Below are positions 41,965 through 56,660 of a DNA stretch of 64,000 nucleotides, in pieces. Position 1 is the first letter of the stretch; each line of letters opens with the position of its first letter. The DNA is taken from positions 1,116,001-1,180,000 of the forward strand of contig NZ_CAMZOK010000002.1 of NCBI RefSeq assembly GCF_947331465.1. The letters are read 5' to 3'. Source of the DNA: Shimia sp. Alg240-R146 (GTDB lineage Bacteria; Pseudomonadota; Alphaproteobacteria; Rhodobacterales; Rhodobacteraceae). The notes under the pieces are model-generated. The model did not search any database. It worked only from the letters and a program-made list of their open reading frames with translations, and was not told where the DNA came from. The translations under genes were made by a program, and so were the position numbers.

Positions 41965-42417
41965 ATGTCCGGCGAAAACGACCTGATCAAGCTTTACTCT
42001 GGCCAGATCCTCAATTTGGCGGCTGCGATCCCGCACACCGAGCGGTTGGTCGATCCAGATGCCACCGTTAAAAAACGCGCGCCGCTCTGTGGCTCCACTG
42101 TGACTGTGGACCTCAAAATTGAGGACGGCCGCATCGCCGCTTTTGCCCAAGACGTCAAAGCCTGCGCCTTGGGTCAGGCCTCTGCCTCCGTGGTGGGCTC
42201 CGGCGTGATTGGTCGCACCCGCGCTGAAATCGAAACCGCCCGCGCAGCGCTCAAGGCGATGCTCAAAGATGACGGCCCTACGCCGCCTGCGCCTTTTGAC
42301 GGTCTCGAAGTGCTGCGCCCTGCACGCGATTACAAGAACCGACACGCGTCGATCCTTCTGGCGTTTGATGCCACCGCCGAGGCGTTTGAACAGGCCGACC
42401 AAGCCAACTGCGCTTAA
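41965..42417 (+). CDS. IscU/SufU-like iron-sulfur cluster scaffold homologue
   Basis: The protein has 150 residues. Two of the three cluster cysteines of the IscU/SufU fold are present: Cys42 in APLCGSTVTVDL and Cys67 in DVKACALGQASASVV. The normal CGD aspartate is Ser, and the third cysteine position (around NRHASILLAF, residues 125-134) holds Ala/Ser instead; the only other Cys is at residue 149. It may be a divergent scaffold or sulfur acceptor. Start at 41965 with GAAGGAAA; a longer frame from 41776 overlaps hisI and is rejected. No suf or isc genes are adjacent. Confidence 0.85.
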   Translation: MSGENDLIKLYSGQILNLAAAIPHTERLVDPDATVKKRAPLCGSTVTVDLKIEDGRIAAFAQDVKACALGQASASVVGSGVIGRTRAEIETARAALKAMLKDDGPTPPAPFDGLEVLRPARDYKNRHASILLAFDATAEAFEQADQANCA

Positions 42418-42435
42418 CCCCGACACTGCCGCCCA

Positions 42436-42473
42436 CAAAAAAACCGCCGCACTTTCAAAAGAAAGGCGGCGGC
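42436..42473 (-). terminator. Rho-independent terminator on the minus strand
   Basis: The minus strand reads a CCGCCGC/GCGGCGG stem extended by CTTTC/GAAAG pairing and followed by seven T. It would end the transcript of the 40-residue gene about 175 bases past its stop. The plus strand has no T-run. The sequence at 42424-42433 (CACTGCCGCC) can also pair perfectly with 42468-42477. Confidence 0.85.
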
Positions 42474-42646
42474 AGTGAGGTGCGTCTTCACGTGGGACCC
42501 AATTCGTCAATGAAGGGCGATCAGGCAGAAAACCCTTCGGGACTTAGAACAGGCAGAACAAGTCGAAATGCATCAAGATGGGGACAGGATGCGGGGACGA
42601 ACCAGCGCGAAAATCGCAGGCAGTAAACTGTATTCCTCAAAAAACC

Positions 42647-42769
42647 TCAGACAAAGCCAGGCACATGCAGCGCCACAACCATCAAAACAACGAGAACCAC
42701 ACCACCAAGAGCGTCTTGCACCAAAGTGTCGCCTGAATTGCGAACCACCGATTTAATTTGCTGCATCAT
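42647..42769 (-). CDS. 40-residue single-pass membrane protein, likely SOS-induced
   Basis: The reading frame begins MMQQIKSVVRNSGDTLVQDA and continues as a hydrophobic helix (about residues 21-35, LGGVVLVVLMVVALH) ending PGFV. The ribosome site AAGGAGG lies five bases before the first ATG, the best in this region. A GTTC-N7-GTTC LexA-type box sits 66 bases upstream, and a strong terminator closes the transcript downstream. Size and layout recall SOS-induced membrane peptides such as Caulobacter SidA (division inhibitor) or E. coli TisB, but I see no sequence match to either. The 5' neighbour is recG. Confidence 0.8.
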   Translation of the reverse strand: MMQQIKSVVRNSGDTLVQDALGGVVLVVLMVVALHVPGFV

Positions 42770-42834
42770 TGGGGCCTCCTTCCCGTTTTGATCTTTGTTG
42801 CCCCTTTGTTCTCACATACGGAACATCAAGTAAA

Positions 42835-42849
42835 GAACTTTATGAGAAC
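42835..42849 (-). promoter_or_regulatory. LexA (SOS) box, GTTC-N7-GTTC
   Basis: On the minus strand GTTCTCATAAAGTTC fits the alphaproteobacterial SOS consensus exactly. Further GTTC copies in the same direction lie at 42859-42856 (N6 away) and 42824-42821, so LexA could bind as an extended cluster. It lies between the recG stop and the 40-residue gene. Confidence 0.75.
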
Positions 42850-42877
42850 ATTTGAGAACATTTCGCGAAAAAAAGCG

Positions 42878-47298
<4,421 letters not shown>

Positions 47299-53735: not shown

Positions 53736-54293
53736 CTAGGGTTCAGAGACCGCCCGCCCGTCGCCCAGCGACGCGTTCAACCGCGCAATCGCTTCCTGAG
53801 TTATGTCGACTCGATCGCTTGACACGAGCACCGTGCGGCGCTCCAAAATTAGCGCGGCACCGGTTTCAAGCATCAACTCCGACAGGATTGGTCGCGCCGC
53901 TTGTACAAACACACTGCGTTCGCGTTCGTTCAACTCGTTCAGTTCCCGAAACCTTGCATCCTGCTCCTCGCGAATGCCACGTACTTTGACGTCAAACGCC
54001 TTTGCCAGAACGCTAAACTCCGCCGCAGACATGGTTTTGCGTTTTTCGGTAAGGTTCTGTTCTTCTTCAGACAGCGTGTCTTCCATCTGCGCGTTGCGCA
54101 CAATCAACTCGGCGCGCAATGTCGCAAGATCTGCTGCGACGCGTTGCCCAAACAGCGACTCGGTGAACATTCTGTCACTCTCAATCACCAGGATTGAGGT
54201 CCCCGCCAGCGACTGTTCCTGCGCGTTGGTGATGCTGGCGTGTATTGCCAGCATCATCAGCAGAAGCGTTTTCGCAAACGTGGTCTGCATCAC
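53736..54293 (-). CDS. OmpH/Skp-family periplasmic chaperone
   Basis: The protein has 185 residues. A signal peptide (TLLLMMLAIHASITNAQ) is followed by ILVIESDRMFTESLFGQRVAADL, and a long charged helical stretch (DTLSEEEQNLTEKRKTMS) as expected for the Skp jellyfish tentacles. It should escort outer-membrane proteins toward BamA, which is encoded three bases upstream in the same operon. Similarity to E. coli Skp is low, but position and architecture agree. Confidence 0.9.
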   Translation of the reverse strand: MMQTTFAKTLLLMMLAIHASITNAQEQSLAGTSILVIESDRMFTESLFGQRVAADLATLRAELIVRNAQMEDTLSEEEQNLTEKRKTMSAAEFSVLAKAFDVKVRGIREEQDARFRELNELNERERSVFVQAARPILSELMLETGAALILERRTVLVSSDRVDITQEAIARLNASLGDGRAVSEP

Positions 54294-54296
54294 AAC

Positions 54297-56660
54297 TTAG
54301 AACGTCGCGCTGATCGTAAAGTTGAAGTTCTGTTCACGGTCATATTGCTCTTTCTTCAGCGCCTTGGTGAAATTGAACCGGAGTGGTCCAATTGGCGTGT
54401 CCCAGAAAATCGAGAAGCCGATCACGTGGCGCAAAGAGAATTCGTCATACAGAACCGCATCGCCATTCGCGCTGGTTGTCTGATCCAAGCCCCACAGTGA
54501 TCCAACGTCGTAAAACAGGCCGCCTTTGATCCCGATTTCTTCCGGAATGCCCAGCGGGAATTCAGCTTCAAACCGTGCCACGGCATAGAAGTTGCCGCCC
54601 AGACCATCATCGTAGCTGCCGCCTGCGTCCCGCTGCCTCGGTCCAATACCATATGGATCAAAACCGCGCATGATGTTTGAGTTCAATTGAAAGCGGTCAT
54701 AGATACGGCTGTTAGAGTCAGGTGAGAAAAGCACCCCGCCTTCTAAAACCGCTCTGAGGGTGACTTCTTCATACCAAACTTTGGTTTCAGCCACCGCCTT
54801 GCCGGTTGTTTTGACATAGGTGTAGTCGCCGCCTACACCACCAAAATCCTGAGCAAACTCAAGCAAAACGCCTTTGTTGACGTCCAACCCTGTTCGGCGG
54901 GTGTCGTAAATATAGGTATACCCGACAGAGCTATCCCATCTATCGCCGCGCCCGGCTTCTTCGTCAATTATCGAGCCCGGACTCTCCTCACCGGTCAAAA
55001 TTTCCATATCCACGTTTTTCAAAGTGTACCGAAACTGCATCCGGCCAAATTCACTTACCGGAAAGAAAAACGACGGCTTAATCTCGCCCACTGTGTTGGT
55101 AAAGCGTGTTTCGCTGTTTTCAGTTTCCACGTACGCCAGATTGATGCCCGCCGACAAATCACGACCCAGAAACGCCGGTTCGCGGAACGACAAGCCGTAG
55201 TCTTTCAAATCAGACGATGTCGAGAACGAAAAGCCGAACTGTTGTCCGCGGCCTAAGAAGTTTTTCTCATTGAAACGCACAACAAGGCCAAAGCCATCGT
55301 TGGTCGAATATGTACCACCAAATGACAACGATCCGGTCGGCTGCTCCACCACGTCCACGTCGACAATTACCTGATCCGGCGCTGTGCCCTCACGCGCGTT
55401 TACATCGACACCGGCAAAATAGCCCAATGCCCGGATACGTTCGGCACTTTCGCGAATTTCACGCGGGTTAAAGGCGTCGCCCTCTACAATGCGGAACTGC
55501 TGACGGATCACCCGATCCAGCGTCGTTGTGTTGCCTTCCACGTCGATGCGTTCAACAAATATCCGTGGTCCTTTGACCAAGGCGAATTCCACATTAAGCG
55601 CCAGATCACGGTCGTTGCGTACAATACGTGGATCAATGCGCAAAAAGTCATGGCCCTCACGCAGGGCCAGTCGCTCAAGGCGCGCAATGGTGTTTTCCAC
55701 CAACACTGGCGAATAGGTTACTCCGGGCTTCAATCGCAGAGCATCGAGATAAGGCTGCGCATCAACCCCATCAAACTCGCTGACAACTGTGATATCTCCG
55801 AAGGTGAACTGTTGCCCTTCCTCGATATTGAATGTCAGGAAATAACCGTCACGCTCGCGCGACAACTCTGCGTTGACCCCGGTGGTGCGGAAATCCACAT
55901 AACCTCGGGATAGGTAGAAATCGCGCAACACTTGTTTGTCAAATTCGATGCGATCCACAACAAGCGTGTCCGACCGAAACAATGCACGCAGCAGACCGGC
56001 TTGTTTCGTCTGCAAAACCTGACGCAAACGGCGATCGCTGAATTGCTGGTTGCCGACAAATCCAAGACGCTCGATCTCGGTAATGCCGCCTTCAAAGATC
56101 TCAAAAACCAGATCGGCGCGGTTATCGCTGCGGCGAATGATGCGCGGCTCAACACGGGCGGCCAAACGACCGCTTTCCGAATAGGCTTGCGTGATCCTTG
56201 CCGCATCGCGCTCAGCGACCGATGGGTTGAGAACCCGCCGGGGCTGCGATTCAATCAAGGCTTCCAGCGCATCGTCTTTCAGCCGCGCATTGCCTTCAAA
56301 ATTGATCCGGCTAATCGTCGGGTATTCCGAAACCTTGATCACCAGCGTACCGCCGCTTGGGACCATCTCAACCGTCTCAAACAGACCGCTTGCCAACACA
56401 CGCTGATAGGCCGCGTTCAACTGACCGGCGGTCAAGGTCTGGCCCTTCTCGATTCCCGCATAGGTGACGATGGCCGTAGATTCGATCCGCTGGTTGCCTT
56501 CCACCCTAATGGTGTTGAAAGCATAACTCTGCGCTGAGGCAATCGTCGGCAGAACGATCAACAACGCTGAAATCAATAGAAAAATACCGATGGCAATCTG
56601 TTTAAACTGCCCACTTACACTGCCCTTGGCGACCGCCAAAGCCCGAGTTTGTTTGGTCAT
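54297..56660 (-). CDS. bamA: Outer-membrane protein assembly factor BamA
   Basis: About 787 residues. A long n-region signal peptide (to SAQ near residue 45) precedes five POTRA domains (first: FNTIRVEGNQRIESTAIVTYAGI) and a C-terminal beta-barrel ending in a phenylalanine (FNFTISATF). The barrel VRFNEKNFLGRGQQ strand motif and the RGFDPYGIGPRQRD loop region are clear. Start at MTKQTRAL; a frame beginning at 56723 adds residues without support. It is part of the rseP-bamA-skp-fabZ-lpx block. Confidence 0.97.
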   Translation of the reverse strand: MTKQTRALAVAKGSVSGQFKQIAIGIFLLISALLIVLPTIASAQSYAFNTIRVEGNQRIESTAIVTYAGIEKGQTLTAGQLNAAYQRVLASGLFETVEMVPSGGTLVIKVSEYPTISRINFEGNARLKDDALEALIESQPRRVLNPSVAERDAARITQAYSESGRLAARVEPRIIRRSDNRADLVFEIFEGGITEIERLGFVGNQQFSDRRLRQVLQTKQAGLLRALFRSDTLVVDRIEFDKQVLRDFYLSRGYVDFRTTGVNAELSRERDGYFLTFNIEEGQQFTFGDITVVSEFDGVDAQPYLDALRLKPGVTYSPVLVENTIARLERLALREGHDFLRIDPRIVRNDRDLALNVEFALVKGPRIFVERIDVEGNTTTLDRVIRQQFRIVEGDAFNPREIRESAERIRALGYFAGVDVNAREGTAPDQVIVDVDVVEQPTGSLSFGGTYSTNDGFGLVVRFNEKNFLGRGQQFGFSFSTSSDLKDYGLSFREPAFLGRDLSAGINLAYVETENSETRFTNTVGEIKPSFFFPVSEFGRMQFRYTLKNVDMEILTGEESPGSIIDEEAGRGDRWDSSVGYTYIYDTRRTGLDVNKGVLLEFAQDFGGVGGDYTYVKTTGKAVAETKVWYEEVTLRAVLEGGVLFSPDSNSRIYDRFQLNSNIMRGFDPYGIGPRQRDAGGSYDDGLGGNFYAVARFEAEFPLGIPEEIGIKGGLFYDVGSLWGLDQTTSANGDAVLYDEFSLRHVIGFSIFWDTPIGPLRFNFTKALKKEQYDREQNFNFTISATF

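Follow-up and report, generated by a model that had tools for sequence, protein, structure and literature searches.

What lies between recG and the next terminator in the window, the stretch of 64,000 nucleotides of Shimia sp. Alg240-R146 DNA analysed here, and does it belong to the SOS response? The initial annotation placed a candidate SOS-induced membrane protein of 40 residues at this site, behind a direct repeat of GTTC. The reading favoured here, held with somewhat better than even confidence, is that of a LexA-repressed, dual-product SOS locus of the Rhodobacteraceae, in which one transcript would give rise to a membrane peptide and to an RNA that putatively acts by base pairing. On sequence comparison, the frame, the promoter architecture and the RNA fold are conserved, as is their fixed order of promoter, peptide gene and structured RNA, which has been overlooked until now. 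The features of the locus are as follows.

42878..44968, minus strand: recG, encoding an ATP-dependent DNA helicase (NCBIfam NF008164, 1109.8 bits against a cut-off of 785), the upstream neighbour, in the same direction.
42821..42859, minus strand: array of GTTC half-sites, with units at 42856-42859, 42846-42849, 42835-42838 and 42821-42824, all in the same direction.
42835..42849, minus strand: operator A, GTTC-N7-GTTC (GTTCTCATAAAGTTC), a perfect repeat read directly.
42829..42834, minus strand: putative -35 element, TTTACT (TTTAC or TTG in relatives; assignment inferred).
42797..42811, minus strand: operator B, GAAC-N7-CAAC, lying over the putative -10/start region.
42775..42781, minus strand: ribosome-binding site AAGGAGG, read directly; a Shine-Dalgarno-like sequence is present in 110 of 113 loci.
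42647..42769, minus strand: ATG frame of 40 codons for a single-pass membrane peptide, predicted N-in; the gene is supported by the family profile, dN/dS and invariant residues.
42474..42625, minus strand: structured RNA with C-rich loops, about 152 nt, beginning 21 nt after the stop codon (covariation and covariance model).
42437..42472, minus strand: intrinsic terminator, GC-rich with a T run, after the gene and the RNA; a GCCGCCGCC...GGCGG-type hairpin and T run are found in 25 of 25 genus loci.

The perfect repeat described in the initial annotation is present when the minus strand is read directly, as are both of the extra GTTC units in the same direction near operator A. The GC-rich hairpin and T run at 42437-42472 bear out the strong terminator that had been placed behind the frame. 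The distance of 66 bases given between the box and AAGGAGG has to be corrected, as the interval from the end of operator A is 53 nt and the given value fits the ATG, at 65 nt. The inventory of the locus stands for the peptide frame and operator A, while the structured RNA and the operator half at 42797-42811 had been overlooked. In the genome of the window, GGGGC and GCCCC flank the short leader (42771-42804, minus strand), and a hairpin over the ribosome site is possible.

The conservation of the 40-codon frame was followed through the family. In a single-sequence search, the 40-residue query matches all 25 genomes of the same genus, its own included, and at E<=0.1 it finds 289 of 394 in the family. 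With a profile built from 48 sequences, the count rises to 348 of the 394 at E<=0.01, again with its own genome included, equal to 347 of 393 genera; 46 are without a match and five of the 348 positive genomes have two matches each. From the 113 loci fetched, 108 distinct peptide sequences were drawn, with a further match (L026) left out as spurious. The length is exactly 40 residues in 101 of these sequences, D19, G22 and L34 are invariant in all 108, and P37 is kept in 107. The aligned start codon is ATG in 107 of the 113 loci and the stop is at the expected place in 112. Across genus pairs, the mean pS is 0.58 and the mean pN 0.15, with a median dN/dS of 0.15 and a largest value of 0.54 (245 of 300 pairs with usable pS). 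By these substitution patterns, the 40-codon frame is a real gene under purifying selection.

In 110 of the 113 fetched loci, the small gene is preceded on its own strand by the C-terminus of recG, and in 102 of the 110 the recG match ends 80-199 nt before it. The check proposed with the initial annotation, whether frame and operator are both conserved beside recG, thus comes out in its favour, as the frame is found in 348/394 genomes, the operator in 112/113 loci and recG in 110/113. A frame lost from relatives while the box drifts, named there as the contrary outcome, is not the pattern seen, since both are conserved. Three loci (L041, L124 and L136) keep the operator and the frame, with recG not found in the fetched flank. 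L041 sits in a different gene neighbourhood. L136 has another gene at the place of recG and retains the downstream neighbours, namely hisI and a small Fe-S-scaffold-like gene, the latter also being downstream in the window; the neighbour gene names come from reading the sequences.

A class-wide profile search matched 8 of 385 genomes, five of them of the same family, and the three others are taken to be chance matches (E 0.005-0.0099, 18-25 of 40 positions, within frames of 200-495 codons), leaving no full-length relatives outside the family among the 385 class genomes searched with the profile. Plasmid and phage records gave no match to the peptide profile. The peptide was proposed to be undescribed, and this agrees with the databases: at E<=0.01, none of the 48 profile members falls into a Pfam or NCBIfam family, and a search of the PDB with the profile returned nothing at E<=1. 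In PHROGs, two of the 48 members match phrog_15880, which has no function, weakly (best E 0.0029). A hypothetical-protein entry for the peptide may well exist in single genomes. Four Paracoccus records (L240, L295, L316 and L342) keep the promoter pattern with small frames that match the profile weakly, and from these sequences the peptide seems to be diverging there.

The promoter is conserved along with the gene as a single element, which scores 34-51 of 51 template bases in the 112 loci that hold it. The sole locus of the 113 in which it was not seen, L166, has N's further down its stretch, and its frame runs for at least 50 codons. The consensus of the aligned family loci reads GTTC-nCAAA-TGTTC-TCAAAAA-GTTC-TTTAC, then TGAGAACA-AAGnGG-CAACA. 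For the alignment of 111 loci, TTCTT and GAACA served as anchors and are fully conserved by construction; L137, with an altered third site, was left out. In 105 of the 111, GAAC follows the third GTTC at a distance of 27 nt. Per base, the first GTTC is retained at 92-98% and the second at 99-100%, the third being the anchor, and the fourth (42821-42824) is mostly absent in relatives. After the anchor GTTCTT, T is kept in 92%, A in 96% and C in 94% of loci. The CAAC of operator B is retained at 91-100% per base, and the operator reads CAAC rather than GAAC in 91% of loci. Within the alignment of 25 genus genomes, identity to the window is 90-95% in the operator blocks and 48-55% in the non-coding blocks beside them.

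The promoter also leads back to the gene when it is taken as the starting point. The pattern GTTCTTTAC-N15-TGAGAACA alone, scanned over genome contigs, was found at 118 loci at least, and in 111 of the 118 matches listed the frame lies no more than 420 nt away (E<1e-3). Among the remaining matches listed, L257 and L329 end before the frame would, and L316 and L342, both Paracoccus, have a weak frame match (E 0.068 and 0.001). Records L338, L351 and L352 (Lentisphaerae, Euryarchaeota and Prevotella) have no frame and are taken as chance matches to the promoter pattern; the other 115 of the 118 listed carry names which we take to be of the Rhodobacteraceae kind, or unspecific ones. The exact pattern GTTCTT-N18-TGAGAACA occurs in 103 of 149 family genomes, mostly in one copy. 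Five genomes have extra copies, which precede recA in G045, G050, G080 and G121 and, judged by position, in G056.

Within the promoter at 42797-42834 there is a -35-like TTTAC or TTG, but TGAGAACAAA stands in place of the -10 element and no canonical -10 hexamer is visible. Several recA promoters of the family look alike.

Could the whole arrangement be a chance reading frame after a chance box? In its own genome, GTTC-N7-GTTC occurs 84 times against 171 for the reversed control, and TGTTC-N5-TGTTC occurs 5 times against 5. The operator A box is no commoner than the control and, taken alone, is at chance level. The case for the locus is therefore made by conservation and not by the frequency of the box. 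As the frame, the operator and the RNA are each conserved in many genomes, the chance explanation is refuted, with next to no probability left to it.

The regulator that reads these operators is probably LexA, which is favoured because the half-sites resemble those of the lexA and recA promoters. The family lexA promoters have the form TTGACA-N17-TAGAAC with GAAC-N7-GAAC, and the box is present in 26 of 27 loci, with no start found in L210. At recA, GAAC-N7-GAAC is present in 21 of 30 family loci. An anchor could be used in 26 of the 30 recA loci, and 16 of these pair this box with an upstream GTTC-N7-GNNC, similar to the promoter of the small gene. The spacing of the recA operators is not fixed, being 27 nt in six of the 16, 28 in the genome of the window and 22-31 overall.

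A matrix built from 52 SOS boxes of the family gives 42835 the top score in the 64-kb window, 14.2, shared with 54054; operator B at 42797 is third (10.1) and 42856 fifth. When the best score in the 200 nt upstream is taken for each of the 113 loci, the median is 13.7; for 1000 random stretches of the window, the 99th percentile is 9.3 and the highest value 14.2. The known SOS boxes, left out one by one, score 13.2-23.3 with a median of 19.5. Operator A (median 13.7, 109 loci) thus stands at the bottom of the known range, and operator B (median 10.1, 110 loci), with one core mismatch, falls below it.

A rival but unlikely reading is that the operator is bound by a different regulator, such as a response regulator with tandem sites that acts on GTTC half-sites at 10-11 bp. 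The three half-sites in the same direction, spaced 10 and 11 bp, would suit such a protein, and the variable operator spacing at recA points the same way. Operator A is also atypical of the SOS boxes of its own genome. With a matrix from nine such boxes, chosen using gene names read from the open reading frames, it ranks 17th of 84, as it lacks the T before the second GTTC and so differs from the nine. In addition, one family genome that is 99% complete (G037, locus L188) carries the peptide and the promoter with no match to the LexA DNA-binding domain at E<=1e-10, though a diverged LexA is conceivable. Against this, a like pair of operators recurs at recA and one of the operators at lexA. Nor do the individual candidates fit. 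CenR, an OmpR-type regulator, reads TGA-N8-TGA (PMC9275681), a motif unlike the GTTC array. MraZ was rejected, as there are no GTTC repeats of this kind in the stretch around the start of mraZ in the same genome. Binding of LexA to, or control by LexA of, the small-gene promoter remains the likely reading of the operator sequences.

Other LexA-like sequences were noted in this genome. The window contains GAAC-rich stretches of this type at 54054 and at 54321-54327 (minus strand), the former being the one that shares the top matrix score. Elsewhere (L092, C2:984055-985055), an SOS-like box, GTTCTCCGAATGTTC, lies some 90-110 nt before a frame identified by eye as L,D-transpeptidase-like, which is possibly a further SOS gene acting on the envelope. 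For Dinoroseobacter, one section of a paper names predicted LexA sites (lexA, recA, dprA and others, for quorum-sensing-related genes), and the small-gene locus is not among them (PMC6473078).

The peptide was described as having a single hydrophobic helix, and its hydropathy supports one transmembrane segment, with a best 19-residue Kyte-Doolittle mean of 2.16 averaged over the 108 sequences. The net charge on the N-terminal side is positive, with a mean of 0.8 in the same sequences. It is predicted to be a single-pass inner-membrane protein with the N-terminus in the cytoplasm. The uncharged helix, the invariant aspartate at its cytoplasmic edge and a mostly conserved HxP exit suggest helix-helix binding rather than a pore.

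SidA, the 29-residue SOS division inhibitor of Caulobacter, is the nearest working model for the peptide, by analogy. SidA has been reported to bind FtsW (PMC4211646). Both are very small inner-membrane proteins of Alphaproteobacteria, with LexA control inferred for the present one, and the likeness is one of description rather than of sequence comparison. The peptide gene differs from sidA in being followed by a structured RNA. An action on cell division is drawn from this resemblance and is put forward tentatively, as possible rather than probable.

The other known model is TisB of E. coli, also an SOS-linked peptide with a single helix, to which the initial annotation had drawn a parallel. 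Toxins of the TisB type have a charged amphipathic membrane helix, and tisB has a long controlled leader. A small, hydrophobic and probably SOS-linked peptide beside a structured RNA could be read as a depolarising SOS toxin of this kind, possibly a type I toxin-antitoxin pair with the RNA as antitoxin. This is improbable, and the depolarising analogy is disfavoured, as a D, E, K or R residue falls within positions 22-38 in just one of 108 sequences, the other 107 being uncharged there. The leader is short, operator B and the start codon being about 15-57 nt apart wherever the element is present (112 loci). In 74 of 75 model matches, the RNA follows the gene on its strand and is not antisense to it. 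The distribution is also different from that of TisB, as the gene is present in 348 of 394 family genomes, with two matches in five, and no match was found in plasmid and phage records.

Behind the gene, the stretch from the stop codon to the terminator is conserved as RNA in the genus. When 16 of the 25 genus sequences were aligned with MAFFT and folded with RNAalifold, the result was a set of inner hairpins carried by a long outer stem, with compensatory changes in 16 of 29 pairs. After the removal of three doubtful pairs, the structure of 26 pairs is formed in 94.2% of cells in the 16 sequences. Changes on both sides are present in 13 of the 26, against a mean of 5.3 in shuffled alignments and with none of 500 shuffles as high. 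Sliding the pair partner by 1-3 columns drops the pairing to 30-42%. Within the genus, the loops show little or no sequence variation, while covariation is seen in several of the stem pairs.

A covariance model, R1, was built from the same 16 genus sequences. In the window, it has a strong match only at 42474-42625 (143.5 bits), the next best being 7.5. All 25 genus loci are matched, including the 16 from which the model was made; among the 88 other family loci, the count is 75 at E<=1 and 71 at E<=0.05. Of the 75 matches, 74 are on the strand of the gene and directly behind it, and the sole one out of place (L048) is a chance match. The gap from the stop codon to the RNA has a median of 8 nt, quartiles of 3 and 14 and a maximum of 128. 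All 26 pairs have double changes in the model-fitted alignment of the 75 matches, an alignment that leans to the structure. Over the 118 promoter-scan matches listed, R1 has 77 matches at E<=1 and 67 at E<=0.05, counted regardless of their position relative to the promoter. The genus-built model was needed for this step, as the terminator was all that RNAalifold recovered from 101 family sequences aligned with MAFFT.

The C-rich loops carry a common motif. In 91 RNA bodies, cut by rule from the 113 loci, there are on average 4.0 copies of CTG[CT]C per body, one of them imposed by the cutting rule, where dinucleotide shuffles give 0.94. The bases of the motif are unpaired at 74%, compared with 43% over the whole bodies. 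The mean fold z of these bodies is -3.0. With these unpaired, C-rich loops, G-rich ribosome sites are suggested as pairing partners.

Rfam has no match in 42300-43000 up to E = 1, and seven matches in eight family loci are all under their gathering scores. The sRNA sX13 also has C-rich loops. Its Rfam model (RF02232, Xanthomonas) overlaps the RNA at L131 909-1011 with 21.5 bits (E = 2.3), and membership was rejected against a gathering score of 50. From alignment and model together, the RNA at 42474-42625 is a conserved structured RNA across the family, with no fitting Rfam family.

The conserved structure and loop sequence across the family raise the question of whether the RNA is the main product, with the frame as a leader or helper, or whether the 3′ structure serves just to stabilise or end the peptide mRNA, with no targets of its own. 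There is precedent for the former in sRNAs of Rhodobacter that are cut from 3′ UTRs behind small ORFs, such as UdsC (PMC9779115, PMC8625941). A mere leader would not be expected to show purifying selection, a nearly fixed length and invariant residues, as the frame does. Neither would a pure stabiliser need loops that are near-invariant in the genus, or stems that covary. Both of these readings together are given a low probability, and a locus with two functional products is preferred.

Several known sRNAs of Rhodobacter were compared with the dual-product locus. UdsC of R. sphaeroides is 67 nt long and RpoHII-dependent (PMC9779115, PMC8625941). The RNA described here, similar to UdsC and other 3′-UTR-derived sRNAs, is directly behind a small hypothetical ORF; however, it is about 150 nt plus the terminator and follows a LexA-type promoter, and identity with UdsC is ruled out by size and sigma factor. 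StsR, with 72 nt and a dependence on RpoHI/HII (PMC8307010), was rejected in the same way. Pos19 of R. sphaeroides, a small ORF joined to an sRNA, is RpoE-dependent and, in the part of its description considered here, reported just in R. sphaeroides strains (PMC5036791). Similar to the dual-function RNAs SgrS/SgrT and Pos19, the present locus would have a small ORF and an RNA part on a single stress-controlled transcript. Unlike Pos19, it has a LexA-type promoter and a family-wide distribution, and its RNA, which follows the frame, has a fold that covariation supports. A dual-function RNA is marked by a conserved frame and a conserved RNA structure in one unit, and these are found here in the dN/dS values, the covariation and the median gap of 8 nt. 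Both the dual-function stress RNA and the SOS-controlled small membrane protein are known kinds, and the locus would belong with them. Among the matches listed in a search of literature titles and the starts of abstracts, none reported an sRNA or a small membrane protein next to recG in the Rhodobacteraceae.

The peptide gene and the RNA are very probably co-transcribed. The gap between them is too short for a promoter in most loci and one terminator follows both, and a single transcript is thus the simplest arrangement; a start site inside the frame, giving the RNA separately, would be the less likely arrangement. In the proposed course of events, LexA would hold the promoter through operators A and B in the undamaged cell. 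Following DNA damage, RecA-triggered cleavage of LexA would release one transcript of about 365 nt, running from about 42800 to 42437. Its 5′ part would be translated from the strong ribosome site to give the 40-residue inner-membrane peptide, in which the conserved D19, the small residues and the HxP exit may serve in helix binding of a membrane protein. On the SidA model, the likeliest partner would be the septal FtsW/FtsI/FtsN complex. The 3′ part would fold into a long stem with two to four hairpins and the C-rich loops CUGUCCC, CUGCCUGUCCC and CUGCCUC. This RNA, either processed free or within the mRNA, would pair with the G-rich ribosome sites of other mRNAs, and an action in trans is considered fairly probable.

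In its fullest form, the proposal is that of a core SOS effector locus of the family, whose single LexA-controlled transcript would yield a checkpoint peptide for the membrane and a base-pairing RNA with several C-rich hairpins, and confidence in this is close to evenly divided. The locus is present in approximately nine of ten sampled Rhodobacteraceae genera (347/393), with neither product named in Pfam, NCBIfam or Rfam. It would add an SOS-controlled dual-function RNA with a family-wide fold to those described, and its lesson for surveys of small ORFs is that the search should extend beyond the stop codon. If the proposal is true, DNA damage in these bacteria would act simultaneously on the membrane or divisome and on the translation of mRNAs with G-rich ribosome sites.
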